Part shown: piece after piece, positions 155 to 18,997 of the stretch | Position numbering within the stretch: the stretch's first letter is position 1 | Layout of the letters: each line of letters opens with the position of its first letter | Origin: Gonapodya sp. JEL0774 | Taxonomy: Eukaryota; Monoblepharomycota; Monoblepharidomycetes; Monoblepharidales; Gonapodyaceae | Assembly (NCBI GenBank): GCA_027604505.1 | Contig: JADIIX010000249.1 | Location: 1 to 20,333 of the forward strand | Length of the DNA stretch: 20,333 bases | Direction: 5' to 3' | The notes under the pieces: model-generated | Databases searched by the model: none | The model's input: the letters and a program-made list of their open reading frames with translations, nothing else | What the model was told of the DNA's origin: nothing | Position numbers and translations under genes: made by a program

Positions 155-288
155 TGTGGCCTACTGGGCACCTGGGGTGACCACAGTCCGGGGATGCATG
201 CAGGTAGTCATATATGTACTGTACGAGCTAGACATACATCAGATCCCCGTCCTACATCTACTGGTTAGGTCCAGTACGGAACATCACA
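155..288 (+). repeat. 5' LTR of the Ty3 element
   Basis: It starts TGTGG and ends CACA, and matches 7912-8028 apart from six substitutions and a 17-bp segment present only here (around 177-193). It would drive transcription; a TATA-like catatatg lies near 210-217. At 134 bp it is very short for an autonomous gypsy element. Upstream of 155 and beyond 290 the two copies stop matching, so the boundaries are well supported. Confidence 0.88.
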
Positions 289-290
289 AT

Positions 291-308
291 TGGGGGAACG
301 GCCGGCAG
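291..308 (+). promoter_or_regulatory. Candidate primer-binding site
   Basis: Two bases after the 5' LTR the sequence begins TGGGGG. TGG pairs with the CCA end of a tRNA, and the TGGGGG start with a later CCGG resembles tRNA-Pro-type primer sites known from other retroelements. The match is partial, so the tRNA identity is a guess; the position is right for a primer-binding site. Confidence 0.45.
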
Positions 309-385
309 CATCTCGCGTCCTGTCACTCCGCTGTGGCCTGTGTCCAAATACCGATTGAATCCGTTCTCCCATCTATCATCTTGCA

Positions 386-2383
386 ATGGCCAACAGTGAG
401 CCATTCAACGTCGTCGACTTCGATGAGCTTGACGAGGATGCCCCCAAAGGGCCTGGCATCGACGATACCCATTCTGGCGAGGGTTCTGGCACCCTGGTTG
501 ACGACCTCCCTGCTGTCTCCGTCAAAGGCAAAGGCCCCGTTGACACCGAAGAAAGCCCGAAACCACCCGGCTTCAGTCCAATAACCCCGAAGGACCCGGC
601 AAGTGCAGTAGGCGCTGGGACCCCGACGCCCCAAACTCGTCTTCTGCCAGCGTCTGATCATCTTCCTTCGCCAACAAACAAACTGTCCGCCACTCCGAAA
701 GCCCGAAAGCTCCCCAACAGCACCCCTCCCTCTTTGTTGTCCGGTATGCCTCCCCTTCGGCCACGCAAACTCCCCGGGACTCAGGGTGCGGCGAACCTCT
801 ACCCACCCCATGTTGCAGCAAGCAAACCATCTGTGGACGAGACAACAGAGTCACTGTGTGCGCGTGTCGTGGACATGAGGGAGCACGTGGCATTAAGACG
901 GGAGGAGATGGAATTGACACACCAGTTGGAGGAGAAGCAGTTGCGTGAGTTGCAGTTCCATCTCGACACAAGGATAATGGCGGCGGGGTACAAGGGTCCC
1001 CGAACAAACGAAGTGAGGTTTACAGCAAATGAAAAAGCGAGTATGTTGCTGGCAAATGAGAGGCAGCCCCAACCACCGGCAGTGGTTCCGAAACTGAGGT
1101 TGACCATTGCCGACCTCCCGACGTTCCAGAAGCAAACGTACAAGCCACCAAGTAGCGAAATGAAGAGAAGAGTCGGGGAGGACCCACATGATTGGGTGGA
1201 ACGCTTGCGTCGTGGTGTGGAGCAGGCTGGTGTGCCAGGCGGACCGGACGCAGTGAACTGGTGCACTCTTGCGCTCACAGAGTCGCTCAACAAAGCGTGG
1301 GGCAACACGAAGCAACCGGGCACGCTGCCCCCAACCCACCGTCTCTGGGACGCAAGGGTCTTCAACTACCCACCAGTTGAGGATCTGGACAGTTTCTTCG
1401 GGTGGTACTACACCATGGTAGTGACAGACGCCCTACGGGAGGAGGCGCAGCAAGTTGTGGACAATGCAAATTGGGCCGTAGTATGTGTGGATGGGTTGTG
1501 CACCGCAGACACTGCGTCTGCGTCGTTGGAGCAGCACATGGCGGACGTGCGGCGGTTGCAAGCGTACACAATGCCCCGTAGCAGAATGACAAGCGAGCAG
1601 CTCAATGAAATGTACGTCACAATGTTCCTGAAGGCCACTGGCCCCGAGGCACGTCAGATGCTGAACGTGGTGGTGAAGCCAGGAGACAAGCTCCAGATAC
1701 AGGAGCTCCGGGAGCGTGTGTCTGACTTGCAGGCATATGCAACATCAAGGTTCCCGCCTTTACCGGCAGGATGTCGTTGGGTGGGAGTGGCGCGCACCGA
1801 CCTGCCGCAGAAGCGCCCGGCACCGGAGTTTACGGAGATGGAGTTGGCGGACGGAATGAAGCGCCCCGCACCGGCCCCGCCAACCGAGCCGGAAGCGAGG
1901 CAGGCGGGAAGAGGTCACCATGGTGGTGGTCGTGGAAATGGAAACAGCCGGGGTGGCCGCGGACGAGGTGGAGGTGGCCCCATGAGGCGCCCGGAGAGCG
2001 GACCGAACCCCTACCTGCAACAGCAGCCGTACGCCCCATATCCACCGCCGTATCCCCCAGCAGGTCCGCAAGGATTTGCTCCGCCTTACCCACCGTATCA
2101 GCAGTGGTACCTGTATCCCCATCCGCCCTACCCACTGTACAGACCCCCTCCACCACAGCAACAATGGGGTCAAGGAAGCGCGTTGGGTCAGTGGGCCAAT
2201 GCAAACAACGATCGATGCTTCAACTGCAACAAGGGGGGTCACTTCAGCAGGGATTGTCCGGAGCCTGCGTCGGATAGCACGTTGAGAGCGAGGGCGAAGG
2301 CGGACGGGCTGGGACGGGGTGAAGTTTCAGATGCGAACAGGCAAGCGTTGGGCCGGAGGGGCAGAGGCCAGGGTCACCAGTGA
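386..2383 (+). CDS. gag: Gag polyprotein of the Ty3 element
   Basis: Structural protein of the virus-like particle, 665 residues. The N-terminal 130 residues are acidic, then proline- and threonine-rich and probably disordered. Residues about 155-195 form a charged helical stretch. Residues about 235-480 look like the globular capsid region. Residues about 505-605 are low complexity, first RGG-rich (RNA binding) and then Pro/Tyr/Gln-rich. A canonical CCHC zinc knuckle (CX2CX4HX4C) begins at residue 611, nucleotide 2216. The ATG at 386 has a purine at -3 and G at +4 and is the first in this frame after the LTR. The TGA at 2381 lies within the donor of the first intron, so the stop is used only in unspliced RNA. 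I see no internal stop; gag is the best-preserved gene of this copy. Confidence 0.9.
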   Translation: MANSEPFNVVDFDELDEDAPKGPGIDDTHSGEGSGTLVDDLPAVSVKGKGPVDTEESPKPPGFSPITPKDPASAVGAGTPTPQTRLLPASDHLPSPTNKLSATPKARKLPNSTPPSLLSGMPPLRPRKLPGTQGAANLYPPHVAASKPSVDETTESLCARVVDMREHVALRREEMELTHQLEEKQLRELQFHLDTRIMAAGYKGPRTNEVRFTANEKASMLLANERQPQPPAVVPKLRLTIADLPTFQKQTYKPPSSEMKRRVGEDPHDWVERLRRGVEQAGVPGGPDAVNWCTLALTESLNKAWGNTKQPGTLPPTHRLWDARVFNYPPVEDLDSFFGWYYTMVVTDALREEAQQVVDNANWAVVCVDGLCTADTASASLEQHMADVRRLQAYTMPRSRMTSEQLNEMYVTMFLKATGPEARQMLNVVVKPGDKLQIQELRERVSDLQAYATSRFPPLPAGCRWVGVARTDLPQKRPAPEFTEMELADGMKRPAPAPPTEPEARQAGRGHHGGGRGNGNSRGGRGRGGGGPMRRPESGPNPYLQQQPYAPYPPPYPPAGPQGFAPPYPPYQQWYLYPHPPYPLYRPPPPQQQWGQGSALGQWANANNDRCFNCNKGGHFSRDCPEPASDSTLRARAKADGLGRGEVSDANRQALGRRGRGQGHQ

Positions 2384-3342
2384 GTACCACGATGGGATGG
2401 AGTGGTCGGTGACACCGCGTTCTGCGGGCGGCGTTTCTGTTCAACACGTCCCGTGTACGACGTTGTTGCCGTTATAGACGAAGTGCAGAAGAGCACTTCC
2501 TGCGTACACTTATACGTAGAACACGCGTATTTTGACGTAGACGAAAATGCGAAAACATGTATTTGTACAGCCAACATTACATCCGTTCATGTGTAATCTG
2601 GCTCCGTTCTGGTGGTGGTTTCACCCAACTTCAGACCGTTTTGTCATTTCGATCACTTTCCCTCACATGCTCCTGGCGCACTTATTTTTCGTGCACAGTG
2701 GAATGTTAGTGGTTGAAGTGCCGTTCTGTGTCTGTGGGCTCGCACCCCCGGCACACGACACCCCAAAACACCTTCAGGACCACGTTCACCTACACCGACT
2801 ACTGTAGTGGCGTGAGGGTTTGTGGGACTGTCCCGTCACCACGTTGGTGCCGGCGGACGCTCGTGCGGTCATGCGGACGGACGTCTCCCCGTTTCGACGT
2901 ACGACATTGGCAATTTCGGTAGTTGGTGACTACTCGAATTTTGTATACGTACAGTGAACACGTCCTTCACTACCGTCAATTATTGCAACCGTTGTACGTG
3001 TACCCGACATTAATGTGGTACATGGGCACCGTTTTGTTTACTAGTGGGTCACCTGACTGCGTGCACAGTCTGCCACTCCGAACAACATTTGAACTGGCGC
3101 CCTAAGTAGGGATGTGACCTCCCTATGGCATGATCTCAGGGGGGTTAGATTGGAAAAACGATCCAACAAGACCTGCATACTGTGCAGCAGCGCAACGGTC
3201 GGCCGGCCAATGCATATGGCAGACAGCGTTGCAACCAGCACAGCACCTCAGTGCTGGGGGTTACGTTGTGTCAATTATTCCGTCGGTTTCTGTCCAAATA
3301 CCGATATATCTGACCTTCCACCTCGTCTGTCCTCCGTTTTAG
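2380..3342 (+). other. Intron 1 of the Ty3 element, 963 nt, gag-pol junction
   Basis: The donor is CA|GTGAGT at 2380. The acceptor is a pyrimidine-rich stretch ending ttttag at 3342, with a CTGAC branch site at 3310-3314. Splicing joins CA of the gag codon 2378-2380 to G at 3343, recreating CAG (Gln), and continues in frame into protease. The segment has no convincing ORF: its open stretches are short and unlike any family. It is far longer than the other introns here. It holds a second copy of a 15-base motif from the gag leader (3291-3305, matching 341-355). It may carry packaging or splicing signals, but that is inference. Confidence 0.72.
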
Positions 3343-3415
3343 GCAACAAGTTCCTCGCGTCCGGGTTGCTTCCCCACTGTGTGTCGAGATCGCACACAAC
3401 ATTGCTGGAGACGAT

Positions 3416-3485
3416 GTAAGTGAAGTGGGGTGTGTATCAGTCCCTCAGAATGCTGACGCTGTCAATTATAATTATTGATGTGCAG
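3416..3485 (+). other. Intron 2 of the Ty3 element, 70 nt
   Basis: Donor GAT|GTAAGT, acceptor gatgtgcag|GGT, with a CTGAC branch site at 3453-3457, 28 nt before the AG end. It is phase 0 on both sides, and the flanking exons read IAHNIAGDD then GVRDPPELH. Without removal the upstream frame would meet a stop within the intron region. Confidence 0.78.
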
Positions 3486-3560
3486 GGTGTGCGAGACCCC
3501 CCTGAGCTTCACATGAATAATGTGGCCGAGAAGTCCCTCCTGGATGATCCCATGACATTG

Positions 3561-3621
3561 GTATGTTTCCAGTGTTTTGGTGTGGCTGACGCACCACTGA
3601 CTGTCTCACTGTTTTGTGTAG
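3561..3621 (+). other. Intron 3 of the Ty3 element, 61 nt
   Basis: Donor TTG|GTATGT, acceptor ttttgtgtag|GAG, with CTGAC branch candidates at 3586-3590 and 3597-3601. It is phase 0 on both sides. The acceptor TAG is itself an in-frame stop, so protease can only be reached from upstream codons if this segment is removed. Confidence 0.8.
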
Positions 3622-5673
3622 GAGGTGCCTGTCGGCACACTCATTGCACAACTGCCACACAACGACCGGGTGAAGGAACATGACAGCAACCTACATGGTA
3701 CTGTCCTGACGTTAATGAAAGCGGAGGCCCTGCCCGGCGCTGTAGATGAGGACGATGGTGCGATACAGCACCGCACGGCGCTGATCAAAGCCCAAGTCTT
3801 CGGTGTATTGCTTGACGATGCGCTGCTCGACTCTGGTGCTAACTTTTAGGCTATTCGGGCGGACATTTACCGCGATTCTATTGCTTGGAAGTACGATTTT
3901 CGTGAACGAGCAAACACATGCAAGATTTGCATGACACTTGGTGTGTCAGGCACATATGCTACCACTATTGGCATTGTGTTTCGTGCTACAATTTTCCTTG
4001 CTGATGGCCCACCTATTACACAGTGGTTGCATGTTGTGGAAAACTTGCACCGCCCCGATGTTCAGACGTCAACGGGGTTATTAATCAATTGGCGAGCGCA
4101 AACTCTCCAGTTCCCACTTTCTTGGGAAGCGAAAGTTAAAACAACGGGATATTCTACACCAATCGCTATCGATGTGCGGTTGGATGCGGAACCGGCAGTA
4201 GATAAGCATGATGGCTACGGACTGCTCTTAGCAGGTGCTGTTCGTATTCCTGGTGAATCACGTGCCTACATTCGCCTCATCCCCACAGACGCGGGTTTGC
4301 GTGTAAAAGAAAATGAGGGGCGCAAGGTGTGTACTACGGCAAACGAGTTGTTTGCTGCACGAGACGGCGTCATGATTGAAAAAGGCGTACACAAAATGGA
4401 AGCCGGGGGTGTAATTTCTACACAATTAACAAATTGGACTACCTCACCAATCTTGGTTCCGGCAAACTCACATGTTGCCAGTTTTGAGTTCAGACATCCC
4501 GGGGATTATATTGCAGATTACCGCAAACTCAACACATTAACGAAGAAGGACGTCTACCCGCTTCCACGCGTGGATGACCTCCTTGATGCAACACAAGGCG
4601 CACGTTATTACACTGCGCTCGATATTACGTGGGGCTATTGGAACGTCAATATGACGCCGGAACACCGTGCGCTGACAGCTTTCATCACGCACGAGGGGTT
4701 ATTCGAACTGAAACGTATGACTTTTGGCATGACTAATGCCCCGGCAACGTTTCAACGGCTTATGGATGCTGTGTTACGAGGTATTAATTGGGTATACACT
4801 CTTGTATACTTAGATGATATCTTGGTATTCTCCAGCACGTTTGAGGATCACCTTAAGCACTTGGAGGAAGTGTTTCGGCGGCTGCGCAATACGAAGTTGA
4901 AGCTGCGAGCGGCTAAGTGCGCATTTTGCCAAAAGGAAACACCGTATTTAGGGCACGTGATTACGAACGACGGCATGATCAAAATGGATCCCAAAAAGAT
5001 CGCTGCGATTCGGGATTTCCCCCCGCCGTCTAATGTCTCAGCCTTGCGAAGTTTTCTGGGGTTGACGGGTTATTACCGTCACTTTATTCCAAAGTTTGCG
5101 CACATTGCTGCACCGCTCACTGATATGGCTGCTTTGAATACCGCACCGGACTGGACAAATGAAAACGCACGGTTGGCGTTTCATCAATTGAAAGAGTTGA
5201 TGTGCTCCGCTCCTGCGTTACGGCGAGTTGATTACTCGCGCCCGTTTATTCTGCAAACTGATGCATCGAAAGTGGCATTGGCTGCTATTCTCAATCAACG
5301 TGATAATGATGGGAGAGAGTATTTGATTGGGGCGGCGAGTAAAAAGTTGACGGCAGCGGAGAAACGCAGGGACGCACGCACCCTCGAAGCATTTGCCATT
5401 ATTTGGGGCTGTGAATACTTCCGGCATTTCTTGCTTGGAGTACCGTTTGAGCTTCAAACTGATCACGAAGCGCTGCGATTGATCAAGTTGCCTACAGCAG
5501 TGGGCAAGATTGTCCGATGGGCTATTCGATTATCTGAATATGATATTGGTCCGTCTTACAAAAAGGGAAAGCTGCACTCTTATGTGGATGCGATCTCCCG
5601 TGTTCCGCCCGACGACGACCGAGAACCGATGGAGTTGGACACGTCAGTCCCAACGTACGGTGATGTTTCCTGA

Positions 5674-7752
5674 CCTGAATTACCTGACGAAGCTGTGGGC
5701 CGCAAATCGGAAACTCATTTTGTCTTGCGCCCTTCCAGCATTCGGACATTTGTAGTGGTTGGCGAGAGTGATGCTGAAATGGCCGAGGGTGACGCTGTGC
5801 CAGAGTCTGGTGCACTTGGTGCCTTCTCCACTCACTCCTTCGCGGAGGCGCGCTACTGGGAGAGCTGGGCAAAAGCTCAGTATGCAGATTACGATTTGCA
5901 CTTGGTAATTAACGTTTTGCAGAATCGTGTTCCGGATGGGGAAGCTGATTTGCTGCGATACATTGAGGCTGCACAGATAGCATGGGGGTGCACGTTGTAT
6001 AATGGGTTGCTTTATCCTTTAGTACGGGAAGCGCCTAAACGCCATACTGTGGGGGATAGCGCTGACGTGACGCTACTGGTTCACGGATCATATGCGACGG
6101 TGCGTGGCCCTTTAGTTGTACCGTACGCTCGGCGTGAAGAGCTGTTACGCATGTTCCATGATCAGCCAATGGCCGCTCATGCCGGTATGACGCATATGAT
6201 CCGTTTACTGCGAGGTCAATATTATTGGTCTTACTGGGTCCGCGATGTGCGCCAGTACGTTGGGAGTTATATATCATGTCAGAGTCGGAAGCCTCCACAA
6301 CCGATGTGACAGGGTTTGTTGCAGCCATTCGACTTTTCGGCTGCACAACCGTTTGACAATGTTTGTGCGGATCATTGTGGGCTGTTCCCGGCTACACCCG
6401 AAGGTTATCAGTACATTCTGGTACTGGTTGATTTATTTACACGTTGGACGGAAGCAGTTCCTGTCCCCGACGTCTCGGCAATTACTACAGCCCAAGCAGT
6501 GTGGCATCATTGGATTTGCCGTCACTCGATGTTTTGCCGTTTTCACTCCGGTCGGGGTCCGGCTTTTCACAATGTGTTGTTCAAGGAGCTCGCGCATTAC
6601 CTTGATTTTGATCAAACACATTCGTCTCCGTTCCATCCCCAAGGGAACCCGTACGCTGAACGTATAATGAAGCCTTTGGTAGATGGGCTCACACATTATG
6701 TGAATTTGAAGGGTACGAATTGGAATGACGCGTTACCGGCCATTATGTTTGCGTTCAACACGCGGTATCATTCAACATTGAATGATTCGCCATTTTATTT
6801 TGCGACCGGTCGTGATGCTAAAATGCCGGTTAATGTTATTACGGGGATGTCTACTGGTGTGGTGCGCACGCTTCCGGTGGATGGGGAGGGAAAGCCCTTA
6901 CCCATTGCAGCGTCTTTGTCTGAAGCGTACTCTGCGCTCCGTGAACGAATTGATGTTGCGGCGAACGCTCGTAAGATGGCGTATGATGCAACGCACAAAG
7001 ATGTCGAATTCGAAATTGAAAGTATGGTGATGGTTTACTATGAGGAACGTCACCGTCCAGGCGAAAGCTCCAAATTCATTTCAAAATGGATTGGTCCGTT
7101 CCGTATCACTGAGAAAGTTGGTCCGGTCACTTACCGTGCGAAACATATTTATACGGGTCAAACTACGTTGGCACACGTTACACGCCTTCGGAAAATTCTG
7201 CCCCGTATTGGCATGTTTTCTTCCGCATTAGCTATTCCTGATACTACGCGTATCCCGGACGATTCTGTGTTGTCTGAACCTCCTGTTGTGGAGCCGGTGG
7301 AACCTGCACCCACTCCAACCGCTGTTGATGTTTCGGGTATGCCTGTTTATGAAGTCGAGGCACTTCTTGATCGCCGCCAGAATGGTCCGTTGGTGGAGTA
7401 CTATGTGAAGTTTAATGGTTACTCTGTCCCTGAGTGGATTGAGGAGGAAAACGTTTTGGCAGAGGCTATGTTGGATGATTATGAAAGCTGTCATCCAACC
7501 GGTCCAAATGGACGTGCTCTTACTGGAGGGCAACGCAAGCGTGCGATGAATACACGTTTGGAAATTCGCCGTGCAGCGTACTTCGGCCGTGTTGGTACTG
7601 ATGAGCCACCACCACAATTTACTTGGCCACACAAACGGCCTTGTGGTATGAAGCCCAGTGGCTCCGATTTGAAAAAAGGGCTACGTGGCTCCCTCTTAAA
7701 GAGGAAGGGGGAGAAAGTGGCTCAAGGAGCCATGGCCATCGACGCTGATTGA
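5674..7752 (+). pseudogene. pol: Pol part 2: integrase with C-terminal chromodomain
   Basis: Continues the pol frame. The zinc-binding module at about 6150-6285 has its His residues but carries Tyr at 6268 in place of the first Cys (YISC instead of CxxC). A TGA at 6307 breaks the frame just before the catalytic core. In the core the first Asp (6370) and the Glu (6658) are present, but the second Asp is Gly (GGT at 6550); 35 residues separate it from the Glu, exactly the DX35E spacing. The GPF-type module (IGPFRI) follows at about 7092. A chromodomain at 7348-7485 reads YEVEALLDRR, then EYYVKFNGY, then a Trp-Ile-Glu-Glu-Glu-Asn-Val segment; such domains guide integration to marked chromatin. 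The basic tail ends with TGA at 7750. This integrase should be catalytically dead. Confidence 0.88.
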
Positions 7753-7894
7753 GGGACCGTCGAACGTTTGCGTGTTAGGTGTTGATGATGATTAAGTTTA
7801 CGGGTCGGGGTGTTTTGTACACTTCTGTACGGTACGATTACGTTACGTCCTTTTCGTATGCGACTGCGTGCTTTTAGTGACGAGGGCGTCACTT
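7753..7894 (+). other. 3' untranslated region of the Ty3 element
   Basis: 142 bases between the pol stop and the polypurine tract, rich in G+T and cgt/gta words, without an ORF. I see no further signal. Confidence 0.5.
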
Positions 7895-7911
7895 GAAAGA
7901 GGAACGGGGAG
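7895..7911 (+). promoter_or_regulatory. Polypurine tract
   Basis: Seventeen bases, all purine except one C, ending exactly where the 3' LTR begins with TGTGG. The position and composition match the plus-strand primer of LTR retrotransposons. Confidence 0.82.
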
Positions 7912-8028
7912 TGTGGTGTACTGGGCACCTGGGATGCATGCAGGTAGTCATATATGTACTGTACGAGCTAGACATACATCAGATCCCCGTCCTACATCTA
8001 CCGTTCAGGTCCAGTACGGGACATCACA
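7912..8028 (+). repeat. 3' LTR of the Ty3 element
   Basis: 117 bp, TGTGG to CACA. It matches the 5' LTR except for six substitutions and lacks the 17-bp segment. It is preceded directly by the polypurine tract and followed by the atct duplication. Confidence 0.88.
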
Positions 8029-8032
8029 ATCT
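8029..8032. repeat. Target-site duplication, right copy (atct)
   Basis: Matches 151-154. The first two bases (at) also follow the 5' LTR, so the exact LTR end relies on the TG...CA rule. Confidence 0.72.
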
Positions 8033-13182: not shown

Positions 13183-13999
13183 CACTCTTAATGTCAGACA
13201 CTCCCACATGTGCTCTATGTTGTTCAAAAGAAGGCTTTGGAAGTGACTTGGTCAGTACATCTGAGGTGTTCTGATTTGTAGAACTATAGACCAGTCAAAG
13301 AGTATTCTGTTTGATGTAGTTACAGACAAAGAAATACTTGATTGGGAAATGTTTTGTCATCTGATGATTCTTCTGATTATGTGCCAAGGACAGTGCACCC
13401 TTTTAATCGCCATAGAGAGTTGCATCTGGTTTTCCAGGTCCAATCAACTCAATACTAGACTTCAAAGGCCAACCAAGCTCTGTGAAAACATAGGTGTACC
13501 ATAACAGTTCCTTGACAGCATAATGCTGGGATACAAACTCTGGAAATGTTGACGGGTCAGTTAGGAGATCCTGTTTTCCAGTCGACCAACTGATGGCTCC
13601 CCCTGACAACATGAAGAGGTATCCCTGTCTAGACTTGAAATCAGCTGGATCACTGGCAAATGTCGCATCATAGTAACCACGGAAGTCCATCCGACTAGTA
13701 GCCCTTTGCGGGTCATCTCGCCCAATGTAGGTAATCCCATAATTCATAGTTCCACTTAAATAACACAGAAGATAAACCATTGCATTGTAGTGCTGCTTGC
13801 CTGGGTTATTCAAAGTTTCAGAAAGAATGCGGAGCGCCATTGCAATATCAGGGCGACTAGTAATAGCAATGTAGTTAAGAACACCAACAACATGGCAATA
13901 ATGTGCATTATCAATTCCAACTTTCTCACTCTCAGATGTTGGACAGTTGTACGCAAAAGAACCAATCCGGGGTGCACAGGAGTAGATACGGGACAACAT
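13151..13999 (-). pseudogene. RNase H and end of pol, Copia-1
   Basis: On the minus strand, SRPDIAMALRILSETLNNP and YLLCYLSGTMNYGITYIG lead into the RNase H region: YYDATFASD, SGGAISWSTGKQDLL, AVKELLWYTYVF and LYGD. The expected Asn after LYGD is a TAA (about 13400). The same frame then continues KGALSLAHNQ and HQMTKHFPIKYFFV, meets a TGA, and ends with SDVLTKSLPKPSFEQHR, the usual Copia pol C-terminus. The two stops show decay, the TGA fitting CGA to TGA. The usual catalytic positions at YYD and LYGD are retained. Confidence 0.82.
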
Positions 14000-14843
14000 C
14001 CAACCATATTTTGGTCATCTGAAAGATCTTCAATTTTCTGTGCGTTCTGAACGGTAATAGACTTAGTAACTGGAGCACAGTGAGTTTCTGACCCAAGTTT
14101 GGGTTCAAGGCAGCGCTCAAGTTCAGCAATGAATTGGTCTGCCAGTTCTTCTGTCAGAGCCACCACTAGTCCATCATCTACATGTATCATCACAACCATG
14201 CGTAGAGTATCATCCTCGTATTACAAACAAATATGCAATTGTTGGATTCCAGCTGTTTAAAACTGAGGTCGTTCATGACATCCACAAATCCATTGAACCA
14301 GACATTGGCAGCTTGTTAAAGACCATACAAGGATTTCTTGAGTTTGCACACAAAGCCAGGCTTGGAGATAAAACCATGGGGCTGTTCTAAGTACACAGCT
14401 TCGGATAAGTTGCGATAGAGAAAAGCCTTTGTAACGTCAAATTGCCTTACGGCAAGACCTTTGTCGGCTGCCTTGGCCATCACAAGTTTCCATGATTTTC
14501 CATTCATAGTTGGGGCAAAGGTTTCATAGTAATCAAAACCAAAACGTTGTGTAAACCCACAGGCACACCATTGAGCTTTGAAACAAATCCAGGAACCTTC
14601 CATTTGCTTCGCATCATGTACCCATTTCCCAGTGATAATCTTATGTCTCTGCGGGACATCATTAACATCCACCAATTCCCATGTGTCATTATCAATGAGT
14701 TGATTGAGTTCCGCTTGCATGGCTAACTTCCATTGTTCAGTGTAAACAGAGGCACTTGCGTCAGCCCAAGTATTGGGTACTGGAACTATAGATAGTACCG
14801 CCATGGTGACCCAACCACTGTGTTGAGTATTGTTTATATACAC
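14000..14843 (-). pseudogene. Reverse transcriptase, Copia-1
   Basis: On the minus strand, EQWKLAMQAELNQLIDNDTW, then KWVHDAKQ, then YYETFAPTMNGKSWK, VRQFDVTKAFLYRNL and EAVYLEQPHGF are the classic N-terminal half of Copia RT, open at 14843-14316. A break near 14200-14315 separates it from the second half, where the active site reads HVDD (about 14171-14184; YVDD is usual). A STPVHPGL segment near 14000 marks the RT/RNase H boundary, again in a shifted frame. At least two frameshifts are needed to read it through. Confidence 0.82.
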
Positions 14844-15665
14844 TGGAGGATTGTTACTGGGATCTGTTACCTCATGGGGACTGTGAGCCAGAACTTCCTG
14901 TTGGAATGGTGTGAGTTGTGATACAATTTGCTGACATTTATCACAGAAGACTCCCCCTGGTTTTGTACATCAGATAGGGATTTGTCTGACATAGAAGGGC
15001 CAACTGGTTTGATCAATGGCTGCAATTATTGAGTAGGACAAGGAATACAAGAATACTTCCCCGCCAGTGAGGGGATTTCAACAGGCAGTTCCTGTCTGGT
15101 ACCTTTAGGGGCAGAAACTTTCGAAGTAGAAGGGCGCGGAATACGTGAGTATTTTCCAGGGGCTGGAGGGATTTCAACAACTAAATCTGGCTTCAATTGT
15201 GACTTAGCTGGTAAGATTGGTAAAGAAGGTGTTGGATGTAGTGATGAAATTGCAGGAAACTGAGTTGAAGAGGGGACAACAGAATCCCAGATTGTCTCCT
15301 TCCCTTTAGCACTTCAGAGAAGTACGCCATGAGTTGGGGACTGCAGTGGTTCTGGTAAAGCATCAGTAGCCACTTCAGGTTTCATGGAGGCTTCAGGCAC
15401 TGGACTGCGGGTCACAGGACCTGAAGAAGCTGGCTGGGCAGTTATTTCCGCTGGTGGGTTTGGAGGACAATGAGGTGGATCATCATCATCGTCATCAGCA
15501 GTAAAGCAAATGTTCAATTTCTGTGGTAATGGAGAATCTGCTTGAGGAACTTTTAGAGAGAGATTTTTGTCATCCTCCAATCCCAACTGACTGACATCTT
15601 TGATAGTGTGGCCAGAATGTGGGAGATAATACGATCTGATGAGAGCTTCTTCTATGAATTTGCAG
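14844..15665 (-). pseudogene. Integrase-RT linker, Copia-1
   Basis: Low-complexity linker typical of Copia pol between integrase and RT. On the minus strand it includes an Asp run (TADDDDDDPPHCPPNPP) and Ser/Pro/Glu-rich sequence at about 15314-15665. The stretch 14844-15313 is broken by stops and shows no domain. Confidence 0.55.
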
Positions 15666-16311
15666 TCATAAAGAGCGGATACTGTTGCGTGTCTTCGGAT
15701 TGTCAAAGACATACACAGTGGAGTCTGTGCCGTATCCAATCATGTAGCATACATCCGCACATGGTTGTAGTTTGTTTCGACTGCCATCTTTAATTAACAC
15801 ATTTGCACAGCACCCAAGAATGCGCAGATGGTCAAGTTTGGCTTTGCACTTTCTTGGAATTTCAATGGCGAGTCGATCGAGGGCGGATGAAGGAGAACAG
15901 TTTCGCAAGTAAGCAATAGCAAGCGCGCGATAGCCCCAAAGGCTGTCCAGTAGTTGGGCCATGACCAAAGTGCTTCACACATTAGTCATAATTGTTCTGA
16001 TTATTTGTTCTGCTTTTCCATTGTTAGAGGATGTATGTTCAGTTGAAGTCTCGGGTGTGATACCCCTTTTGTTCATCCATTTCCATCATAGCATGATTGA
16101 GTAGAATTTCTTTGGCATTGTCACTGTGGATTGCTTTTGTTTTCCAGTTGTATTAGCGTTCACCTCTGGTAATAACAGATTGTAAACACTTTGTTGCTTC
16201 CGACTGTCTTGTCATTAGTTTGGGGAAAATTGCTCCTGATGATTCATCCAGAAGGGCCATGAAATATTGGAACCCCCCATCACTGTTGTTGTTGAGTTTT
16301 GGGGGCCGCGA
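15666..16311 (-). pseudogene. Integrase core, 5'-truncated, Copia-1
   Basis: On the minus strand the core begins DGGFQYFMALLDESSGAIFP. The second catalytic Asp lies in KAIHSDNAKEIL (about 16110-16130) and the Glu in NNGKAEQIIRTI (about 16005-16030). After a TGA (fits CGA to TGA) come SLWGYRALAIAYLRNCSPS and HLRILGCCANVLI, the usual Copia integrase tail. The zinc finger and first Asp region are missing because the element is cut at about 16311. Confidence 0.8.
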
Positions 16312-16551
16312 TGTGTGTGTATTTATTTTTTTACTTGTACCAGAGCGTGCACTACTGTGGTCACACACCTACATTCTAGTCCCACACACAAGTAAGAGCA
16401 CTCACTACATAACTCCACAACCAAGAATGCTAGAGACTTTGTTCAACTACCAAAACGTATCTACTCTTTGATGTGGTTCTAATACGCTTATTGGTGTTGC
16501 CCTAGCGTCACTCCTTGTGGAGGAATTAAGGTCCAAAGACCCAACTTGACA
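16312..16551 (-). repeat. Probable 3' LTR of Copia-2
   Basis: On the minus strand a G-rich tract (ggtttcaggggcag) runs into TGTCAAGTTGGG at 16551. A TG...CA segment of 240 bp would end at 16312. No partner LTR is in the window, so this rests on position and boundary bases only. Confidence 0.4.
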
Positions 16552-16599
16552 CTGCCCCTGAAACCAATACTTCAGTTGCTGGGTTCATACAGCATTTCA

Positions 16600-17200
16600 A
16601 ATAATGTCTGACATTCGCATTGCTCCTCTATGTCGCTCAAAGATTTGTTTTGAAACTGGCTTGGTCATAATGTCTGCCACAATTTTTTGTGTCAGGCAGT
16701 ACAACAGTGAAAGTGTCCCCTTCTCATGCTCCTCCTTGATAAATGAAATTTGACATCAAAGTGCTTGGAAAGTTTGTGGTGGACTGGATTTCTTGCCAAG
16801 TTCTGAGCACTTTGATTATCTCCATACAATTTAGGAACACCTCTGTTAACTCTCCCATAAATTTTCACAGCTCCAGTTGGCCAAATATCATGTTCTGAAA
16901 AAAATTGCTTGATCCATAACATTTCCTGTGTTGCATGATCTTGGGCAACATATTCTGCCTGTGTTGTAGATGTGGCAACCAAGTCTTCTTTCCCACTAAA
17001 CCAACTAATAGCTCCCCCTCCCAATAAGAAGACATTACCACTTCGTGATTTTCTGTCTTGAACATCTCTTGCTGTTGAGATTATATATATGAGAATCCAG
17101 CACTCTGCCTCTGTACAGGTTTTGCACTTGGCCCAGTGGTTACATCAACACTTGCATAATCTGCATCATAGTATCCATGCAGATCCACATATACAGAAAG
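16600..17200 (-). pseudogene. RNase H and end of pol, Copia-2
   Basis: On the minus strand: LHGYYDADYA, an 80-nt intron-like break (17072-17151), then DVQDRKSRSGNVFLLGGG, AISWFSGKEDLVATSTTQAE, EMLWIKQFFSEHDIWP, PKLYGDNQSAQNLARNP and HHKLSKHFDVKFH. The catalytic positions (YYD, TQAEYVA, LYGDN) are all present. A frameshift follows near 16700, after which VADIMTKPVSKQIFERHR gives the pol C-terminus. Confidence 0.82.
17072..17151 (-). other. Intron-like 80-nt segment in Copia-2 RNase H
   Basis: On the minus strand, GCA A|GTGTTG ... ctcaacag|CA AGA. Removing it joins YYDADYA to TRDVQDRKSRSG in frame, close to the uninterrupted YYDSSFAEDHYDRKSRSG of Copia-3. Left in, the frame ends in TAA. The donor is weak, so a small insertion is the alternative. 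Confidence 0.45.
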
Positions 17201-17232
17201 CTGTTTTTATCATCACACATAGTAGCAGTGAC

Positions 17233-18202
17233 TGGAGGTGGAACATGGTTACTGGGGTGACCAAACGTCCTGAGGACCCACCAACATCAGCAAGTAGAGA
17301 AACTAAGGCGGAAATAGATGTGAAACAGGAAGAATGGGATGATGCTGAGCAGGGATTGACAGCAGCCCTCATATCTATCATTGATGACGATCTTTTCCTA
17401 TCGATCGTGGACTGCAACACGTCAGCAGAGCTGTGGGAGCGCCTGCTAGTGACATACCATGGAAATCGCAAAGCAGAGGAGTTCATTAAGAGGCGGGCAC
17501 TTGAGGATGTACAGATGGATGGGACTGTGACGGACAATCTTGCAACATTCAGCAAACTCAAGAACGAGTACAAAGCAACCGGCAGAACTCTATCACAGTC
17601 AGACAAGCAAAGGATTTTTCTGGACGGTGCAAAGCACAGATCTGCATCCATCTACAATCGTTTCACACTTTCCTCCGAACCCACCCCTGCAACTGTCGCT
17701 GACATTGCCAACGCTCTCCGCGACGCTGAGATTCAGGATCGCCTCTCAGGCACAGAAGTGAATGCAGTGGAGCATGGGCAAGCAGTTCCAGATGTGTTTC
17801 GACGAGTGGCTCAGAAGTTTGACAAGTGCAACTGTTGTCAAGGATACAGACACTTTGGTCATGACTGCGCAACACCTGTGGAGTGGGCAAACAATATTCA
17901 GGCCAGATATGAAGTTTCTCGTGGTGAAAATTGGGGAAGGTCTGGTGGTGGTGGCTGTGCAGTACCAGACAACCAAAGAGGTACTGGGAACTGCGGTGGG
18001 TATCGTGGAGGTGGAATCAACCAGGGGGAAGGAGCCTGGAGAGGAGCTGGTCACGGAAGCCGTGGAGGTCGCAACAGAGGTTGTGGCAGTTACTACGCAA
18101 GGGTGTACATTGCAGAAGAAGATTATAAAGATGGCAATACAGAGGACCATTCTCAGTACTCAGATCACAAGTCCAAATTTGTGGATCATGTCATGCCATC
18201 TG
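17233..18202 (+). CDS. Gag of Copia-3 (N-terminally truncated)
   Basis: Nucleocapsid precursor of a Copia element. An open frame starts within Copia-2 sequence, and coding-like residues begin around VTGVTKRPEDPP (about 17251). ALISIIDDDLFLSIVDCNTS and ELWERLLVTYHGN match the usual UBN2-type Copia gag core, where LW and the helical LxxLKNEYK follow. A CCHC knuckle (CX2CX4HX4C) spans 17827-17868. After it comes a Gly/Arg-rich RNA-binding tail (about 17935-18090). The frame reaches the GTGAGT donor at 18203. Read through, it runs on to a stop at 18426 with no recognisable sequence, which supports splicing. Confidence 0.75.
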
Positions 18203-18422
18203 GTGAGTGGAAGAGAGGCCTTGTCCGCAGATTTACGTCCTTGCAACACTGTGGCACAGCATTGCTACAAGGGGCGGCTTTGCGGGGCTCCCTCCCCTCC
18301 CCTCCGGCCCCACTGCGCAAAGTCACAGGGGGTCACCCCCCCTTTAGACTTTTGCTTGTGAGTCTGTCGGGGAGGGGAAAATCAAATCTCTCACTCCCAA
18401 ACTTTACAGAATTTTCATGCAG
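18203..18422 (+). other. Intron-like C-rich segment in Copia-3, 220 nt
   Basis: TCT G|GTGAGT ... catgcag|CT AAG: phase 1 on both sides, recreating an Ala codon and joining VDHVMPS to AKSPVGSLAYVSTLDPDGE in frame. The inside is unlike both flanks in composition, with long C and G runs. A nested insertion is the alternative; tcatgc occurs at both edges (18191-18196, 18415-18420), but removal at those repeats does not restore frame. Confidence 0.5.
18290..18311 (-). other. G-quadruplex-capable tract (minus strand)
   Basis: On the minus strand four G runs of 4, 4, 4 and 3 are separated by loops of 5, 1 and 1 bases. This is a textbook quadruplex pattern; the + strand is the matching C-rich tract. 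It lies inside the intron-like segment of Copia-3. Confidence 0.7.
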
Positions 18423-18997
18423 CTAAGAGCCCAGTTGGCTCGCTTGCTTATGTTTCTACACTTGATCCAGATGGTGAGACAATGGCTCTGAATGCACATG
18501 CATTTTCTGTGCCATCATCAAGTGATACACCTATTATACCCAAAGAGTCAGCAACAGAGGGAAGATCTGTTTGTTATCAGCAACTTGATGGTCCTGATAG
18601 TGATGATGAACATGACTTTGACCACAATGACAACATTCATTCTCATCCAATTGTACCTGCACCAGATCCATGTGGAGGAGGCCTTTCTGGTGTAGATAGT
18701 GGAGCATCTCTTAAGTTGGGAGCAAATGATAAAAATCCAGCACAGCCTGTAGATGCTGGTGGATCAAGTTCAGCAGCAGTGTCTGGCAACAATAATGTAA
18801 AGCCACCAATTAATAATCCCCGACCTGTTAGGGAAGCCAAATCAGAAGCTTTAAAGAAGCTTGTTACTGTGAAACCAGCTTGGAGGCCTGTCTTACCATC
18901 CCAACTGACATCTTCCTCCAGTGGCAAGCCAGCAGTGGGTGTACCAGTTTCTAATGACAAAGGCAAACAAAAGGCAGAGGCCTCAGCTTCTAAGTAA
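18423..18997 (+). CDS. Linker region of the Copia-3 polyprotein
   Basis: Frame-continuous with gag after splicing at 18203/18423. It is polar and disordered: Asp/His-rich near 18590-18650, then Ser/Gly/Asn/Pro-rich and Lys-rich to a TAA at 18995. It resembles the variable linker ahead of Copia RT. It contains VDSGAS (about 18692-18709), which looks like the protease active-site motif, but its surroundings do not resemble protease. A frameshift is needed to reach RT. Integrase sequence is absent between gag and this linker. Confidence 0.5.

Follow-up and report, generated by a model that had tools for sequence, protein, structure and literature searches.

The Ty3/gypsy chromovirus described here from Gonapodya sp. 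JEL0774 probably makes its Gag-Pol by nuclear splicing rather than by ribosomal recoding. Gonapodya is a chytrid genus within the Monoblepharomycota. Retroelements need far more Gag than Pol, and the usual means to this end is ribosomal recoding; a small number of plant and animal elements use splicing. The original prediction had read the junction as gag and pol of a Ty3 chromovirus joined by three introns, and both parts of that interpretation are supported, the chromovirus by its domains and the introns by features read directly from the DNA, namely the splice sites, their phases, the open frame that they create, the absence of exactly the third segment from a sister insertion and the recurrence of a gag stop codon within a 5′ splice site in one diverged element.

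Identity and decay of the element

The window, a stretch of 20,333 nt (contig C248), belongs to a searched assembly of 25 Mb in 381 contigs. Positions 155–8028 hold a decayed Ty3/gypsy element with long terminal repeats (LTRs) and a 4-bp target duplication, ATCT, at 151–154 on the 5′ side and 8029–8032 on the 3′ side. The 5′ LTR (155–288, forward strand) is 134 nt long and runs from TG to CA, and the 3′ LTR (7912–8028, forward strand), of 117 nt, has a purine-rich tract just before it. Seventeen nucleotides of the 5′ LTR are missing from the 3′ LTR; at this place both LTRs of the sister insertion C300 are like the 5′ LTR.

The first exon (386–2379, forward strand) is an open reading frame (ORF) encoding gag with a CCHC zinc knuckle, matched by the Pfam profile PF00098 at residues 610–626 of the product, and its final codon, CAG, is split after CA. 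The fourth (3622–7749, forward strand) covers protease, reverse transcriptase (RT), RNase H, integrase and chromodomain. Pfam profiles recovered the RT, RNase H and integrase domains, and their order in pol (PF00078, PF17917/PF17919, PF17921, PF00665) is that of Ty3/gypsy elements. The protease was identified by eye from a DSGA motif near 3830, and no Pfam match was found for its piece at 3622–3846. The element can be classed as a chromovirus by the C-terminal chromodomain of its integrase, an assignment based on this domain and not on an RT tree; the chromodomain scored 25.8 bits when its stretch was scanned alone, above the Pfam cut-off of 25.1, but 21.7 bits, below the cut-off, within the long pol piece, and that of C300 scored 24.2 bits against the same cut-off.

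The pol of the window is broken by in-frame stops at 3847, 5671 and 6307. About 445 nt of coding sequence upstream of the RT core, present in C300, is absent from the window at 4514/4515, where the breakpoint has short shared letters. Since this stretch reads as coding, and since its aligned ends are neither GT at the start nor AG at the end, a fourth intron at this point of the RT region was rejected and the absence was called a deletion. CpG sites of the window read TG or CA at 110 of 274 positions in C300, 93 of 175 in C126 and 71 of 175 in C130, which suggests decay by CpG transitions. The window also holds Ty1/copia remains at 13403–18426, with RVT_2 at 14319–14843 and SH3_retrovirus at 15669–15968 on the reverse strand and a copia-type gag at 17089–18423 on the forward strand, and contains no tRNA genes over its whole length.

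Structure of the gag–pol junction

Three predicted GT–AG introns, whose sites were confirmed on recheck, would join gag to the protease in one frame on the forward strand. Intron 1 (2380–3342, 963 nt) runs from GTGAGT to TTTTAG with a CTGAC at 3310, and is followed by exon 2 (3343–3415), whose 73 nt comprise one base and 24 codons. Intron 2 (3416–3485, 70 nt, GTAAGT to TGCAG) precedes exon 3 (3486–3560), of 75 nt or 25 codons, and intron 3 (3561–3621, 61 nt) runs from GTATGT to TGTAG. The branch A of CTGAC lies 29, 29 and 32 nt from the ends of introns 1, 2 and 3, respectively, and intron 3 has a second CTGAC at 21 nt. The coordinates, the donor, acceptor and branch motifs, and the phases and lengths that keep a single frame through 24 and 25 codons across all three joins were reproduced exactly as originally predicted, and the first join indeed remakes a CAG codon. 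The gag stop TGA (2381–2383) lies inside the first donor, CA/GTGAGT, as G/TGA/GT, so that a ribosome on unspliced RNA would halt on entering intron 1, of which the stop forms bases 2 to 4. The original prediction mentioned neither this position of the stop nor the decay of the copy.

Under search rules of GTR[AT]GT donors, YAG acceptors and a CTRAY branch, 2200–3840 contains two open in-frame paths, the three-intron path and one that skips exon 3. Dinucleotide shuffles of 2380–3621 gave any open path in 12 of 400 cases in a first set and in 92 of 3000 in a larger one, where paths with at least two introns arose 72 times, paths with three introns 4 times, and paths whose first donor contains the gag stop 13 times, figures that flatter the intron model somewhat because the site patterns were chosen after the sites had been seen. 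The support for intron 2 consists of its frame, its sites and its retention in C300. Two introns of one host gene of the actin family, read by eye, measure about 75 and 70 nt (GTGAGT to GTGTAG and GTACGT to TATAG, respectively); introns 2 and 3 resemble them, and intron 1 is much longer.

Introns 1 and 2 contain stops in whichever frame they are read; one frame of intron 3 is stop-free, but the length of this intron shifts the frame. The stop-bearing spacer between gag and protease amounts to about 1.2 kb, and the two frames are neither overlapping nor adjacent. This bears on the possibility that the element follows other fungal chromoviruses in producing Gag-Pol by a frameshift or by reading through the stop, the introns being a prediction artefact comparable to that of Cryptococcus Tcn1 (PMC10085805). 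Frameshift and readthrough are the strategies given for related fungal elements in that source, the gag and pol frames of L053, an element of the same genome, overlap, and the +1 frame stays open for 31 codons beyond the window gag stop (2382–2474). However, a single recoding event could not reach pol across a stop-bearing spacer of this length, and recoding would leave the exact absence of segment 3 from C300 unaccounted for; we regard such a route as very improbable.

Seven phase-correct [ACT]AG sites occur in 2400–3400, and only the one leading to 3343 is open through to the end of exon 2. Pol might otherwise be made separately from Gag, on an RNA of its own that is spliced or starts internally and with donor 1 unused, in the manner of foamy virus, which translates a Gag-free Pol from a spliced mRNA (PMC3705302); an in-frame ATG in exon 3 is compatible with this. 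The phase match of gag with the sole open exon 2 acceptor would then be superfluous, as would the same phase in the diverged C78 element, and we consider Pol expression of this kind distinctly unlikely. Splicing that fuses gag to pol remains our preferred reading of the junction.

A sister insertion lacking the third segment

The strongest independent evidence for the introns comes from C300, a separate insertion 86–90% identical to the window element, with different flanks and its own 4-bp target duplication, GCCC. Besides the window, it is the only insertion that reaches into segments 2 and 3. Its alignment skips exactly 3561–3621, which is intron 3, with the frame kept, and introns 1 and 2 are retained. 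The fused exon 3–exon 4 frame of C300 sits in a 217-codon ORF, and its donor 1 also holds the gag stop TGA. Within intron 1 the two insertions differ by indels of 19 and 17 nt, whereas exon 2 carries no indel between them, and intron 2 of C300 is 70 nt long and ends in TGTAG. The homologous two-intron path of C300 (928 and 70 nt) is open; its intron 1 acceptor is not unique, as four open paths exist under slightly looser rules. The NCBI gene model of C300 gag (P0002) stops short of crossing the junction.

It is improbable that a chance deletion would both begin and end at predicted splice sites and also keep the frame, whereas a gap of this kind would be expected from, and directly explained by, reverse transcription of RNA from which intron 3 had been removed. 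It is also possible that segment 3 was gained in the line of the window. No second copy of segment 3 was found in the genome, where it matched only itself, and an introner origin was rejected on that account.

Interior of intron 1

The original prediction had expected conserved splice sites around a drifting intron interior, and this expectation failed for intron 1: over 926 aligned bases it matches C300 at 89.1%, a level similar to the 87.5 and 89.5% of gag and the 86.6% of pol. Differences in gag concentrate at third positions (16.8% vs 8.6 and 8.5%), which indicates that the copies descend from elements with a working gag. In 2384–2930, intron 1 differs by 8.5–14.3% depending on position class, values that are below those of gag third positions and uncorrected for CpG. 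A weak period-3 pattern, unlike that of gag, is present in the same stretch, with variable columns at 0.50, 0.33 and 0.45, and at 0.43, 0.27 and 0.36 when CpG columns are left out. Intron 1 was rejected as coding sequence, as a six-frame comparison with C300, C126 and C130 gave matches in all frames on both strands and the position-class counts depart from the gag frame. It is here treated as putatively noncoding with an unexplained constraint, and its low divergence hints at a role in the unspliced RNA, for example in packaging or export. Folding compared with shuffles gave z = 0.40 for 2730–2930 and z = −0.81 for 2930–3290, with no structure indicated, and no RNA family match up to E = 5 was found in 2300–3700.

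These results also bear on a different origin of the spacer, which might be a noncoding insertion that a defective master copy passed on to its descendants, with pol supplied in trans or absent and the splice sites coincidental. The window and the sister copies examined are all decayed, intron 1 seems to have been inherited as a block and is conserved like the exons, and any open path arises in about 3% of shuffles, all of which would suit such an origin. The gap of C300 at segment 3 is nevertheless precise and keeps the frame, the stop-in-donor arrangement is also present in C78, and the third-position bias in gag points to ancestors with a working gag. A defective master copy is therefore unlikely in our view, although less so than the two routes considered above, and a spliced gag–pol junction remains the favoured explanation.

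Other copies of the family

C126 and C130 keep the end of gag and the first half of intron 1, then pass into unrelated sequence near 2927–2945, which in C126 looks copia-like by eye. The GT of donor 1 is conserved in all four copies that reach it, and two of the four (the window and C300) have the gag stop in donor 1 and in frame; C126 has TCA at the stop position and C130 is off frame. C26 keeps an intron 1 fragment near the RT and has lost the junction. Two NCBI proteins of the same organism, P0001 and P0011, whose contigs measure 9115 and 1583 bp, match the family gag and pol. The copies behind them were not found in searches of the 381-contig assembly, and the proteins end before or begin after the junction.

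Diverged relatives

The C78 element, with an RT 56% identical to that of the window, has a CCHC gag ending in a TAA inside AA/GTAAGT, in the same phase as in the window. A phase-correct CAG acceptor lies 1411 nt downstream and is preceded at 26 nt by a branch motif. However, C78 has six open phase-correct acceptors and its frame reaches a stop at 5401, before the protease, so that the strength of this case lies on the donor side alone. Among 414 open frames of 100 codons or more in the loci examined, 10 were followed by a stop inside GTRAGT, a count that includes the cases of interest.

A stretch of 55 nt in the gag–pol spacer is common to C78 and L049 at 76% (L050 4646–4700 and L049 4745–4799, as reverse complements), and the two elements are otherwise diverged. 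The stop-in-donor layout was not seen in L049, L052 or L058. Two donors occur in 3300–5300 of L049, neither with a stop, and no gag end was recognised in this element; L052 has one donor with an embedded TAA that has no tie to gag, and 2000–2950 of L058 contains no donor of the pattern. L048 and L058 are degenerate elements, and their gag–pol spacer is noncoding. Long ORFs are found in L060 and L061, the gag alignment of C37 (L056) ends before the junction, and L051 begins at a contig end. A gag on C2 is 44% identical to that of the window, and its locus, L062 (C2:240600–245200), has no pol match within the 4.6 kb examined. It was not counted as a further stop-in-donor case, as its first stop does not fall within a donor and the TGA in TG/GTGAGT is read only in a neighbouring frame. 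A search of IMG/VR with P0003 found no relatives.

A proposed splicing switch

In the mechanism that we propose, unspliced full-length RNA would give Gag only, because the gag stop starts one base into donor 1, and the same RNA would be the genome. Removal of introns 1 to 3 would carry the stop away with intron 1 and fuse gag in frame to protease–RT–integrase, and the efficiency of splicing would set the ratio of Gag to Gag-Pol. We infer splicing itself, this setting of the ratio and the unspliced RNA as the usual genome. Introns 1 and 2 are kept in both insertions that reach them, which indicates that the RNA reverse-transcribed in these cases was unspliced there. Loss of intron 1 would abolish free Gag, whereas loss of intron 3 would not, and the pattern of intron 1 kept and intron 3 lost, as seen in two insertions, could fit this argument.

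We lean slightly towards a broader proposition for a clade of chytrid chromoviruses, in which a gag stop lodged in the donor of a long retained intron would serve two purposes and act as a Gag/Gag-Pol splicing switch, intron 1 would be under selection since its loss leaves no free Gag, and dispensable introns, such as intron 3, could be shed through reverse transcription of partly spliced RNA. If true, the insertions, with an intron present in one and absent from another, would record naturally how an element retains introns through an RNA intermediate, and the choice of unspliced RNA as genome would become testable.

Comparison with known systems

The chromodomain integrase and the fungal host are shared with the Tf1/sushi group (PMC10085805), fungal chromoviruses for which a −1 frameshift, an in-frame stop or a single ORF is described (PMC10085805). 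In Cryptococcus Tcn1, an annotated gag–pol intron was judged wrong (PMC10085805); the present element, if our reading is true, cautions that introns at the gag–pol junction are not always annotation errors. The cryptic intron of Tf2 is tied to silencing and not to Gag-Pol in a review of yeast elements (PMC7175516). No earlier report of a gag–pol intron in a chytrid element was found among the titles and abstract openings retrieved in searches of open-licence literature.

Pol expression also needs splicing in foamy virus, but foamy Pol is made without Gag, whereas here it would be fused to it (PMC3705302). The Ty1/copia elements copia, BARE1 and EVADE resemble the present element in balancing Gag and Pol by splicing, which in their case yields a Gag-only message (PMC3735527, PMC12786077). 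The arrangement would be reversed in Gonapodya: the spliced RNA encodes Gag in those elements, whereas here the spliced RNA would encode Gag-Pol and the unspliced RNA Gag (PMC3735527, PMC12786077).

The closest precedent appears to be the plant Ogre, and the Gonapodya element might represent a new version of its strategy. Ogre elements are not known to be chromoviruses. In these plant Ty3/gypsy elements, one intron between gag-protease and RT is spliced from a subset of transcripts, and the two ORFs are 274 bp apart on average (PMC6317226). The original prediction had called several introns at the gag–pol junction an unusual way to make the fusion and named no precedent; for splicing between parts of a polyprotein, Ogre is one (PMC6317226). 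Both share an inter-ORF intron whose splicing would allow the whole polyprotein (PMC6317226, PMC3735527, PMC12786077), and in the window the predicted introns restore one polyprotein frame, judged from the DNA alone. The intron position that marks the Ogre lineage, between protease and RT, is not that found here, where the segments precede the protease with its DSGA motif. In this chytrid element the break is instead between gag and protease and comprises three segments, with a first intron of 963 nt and the gag stop lying in its donor.
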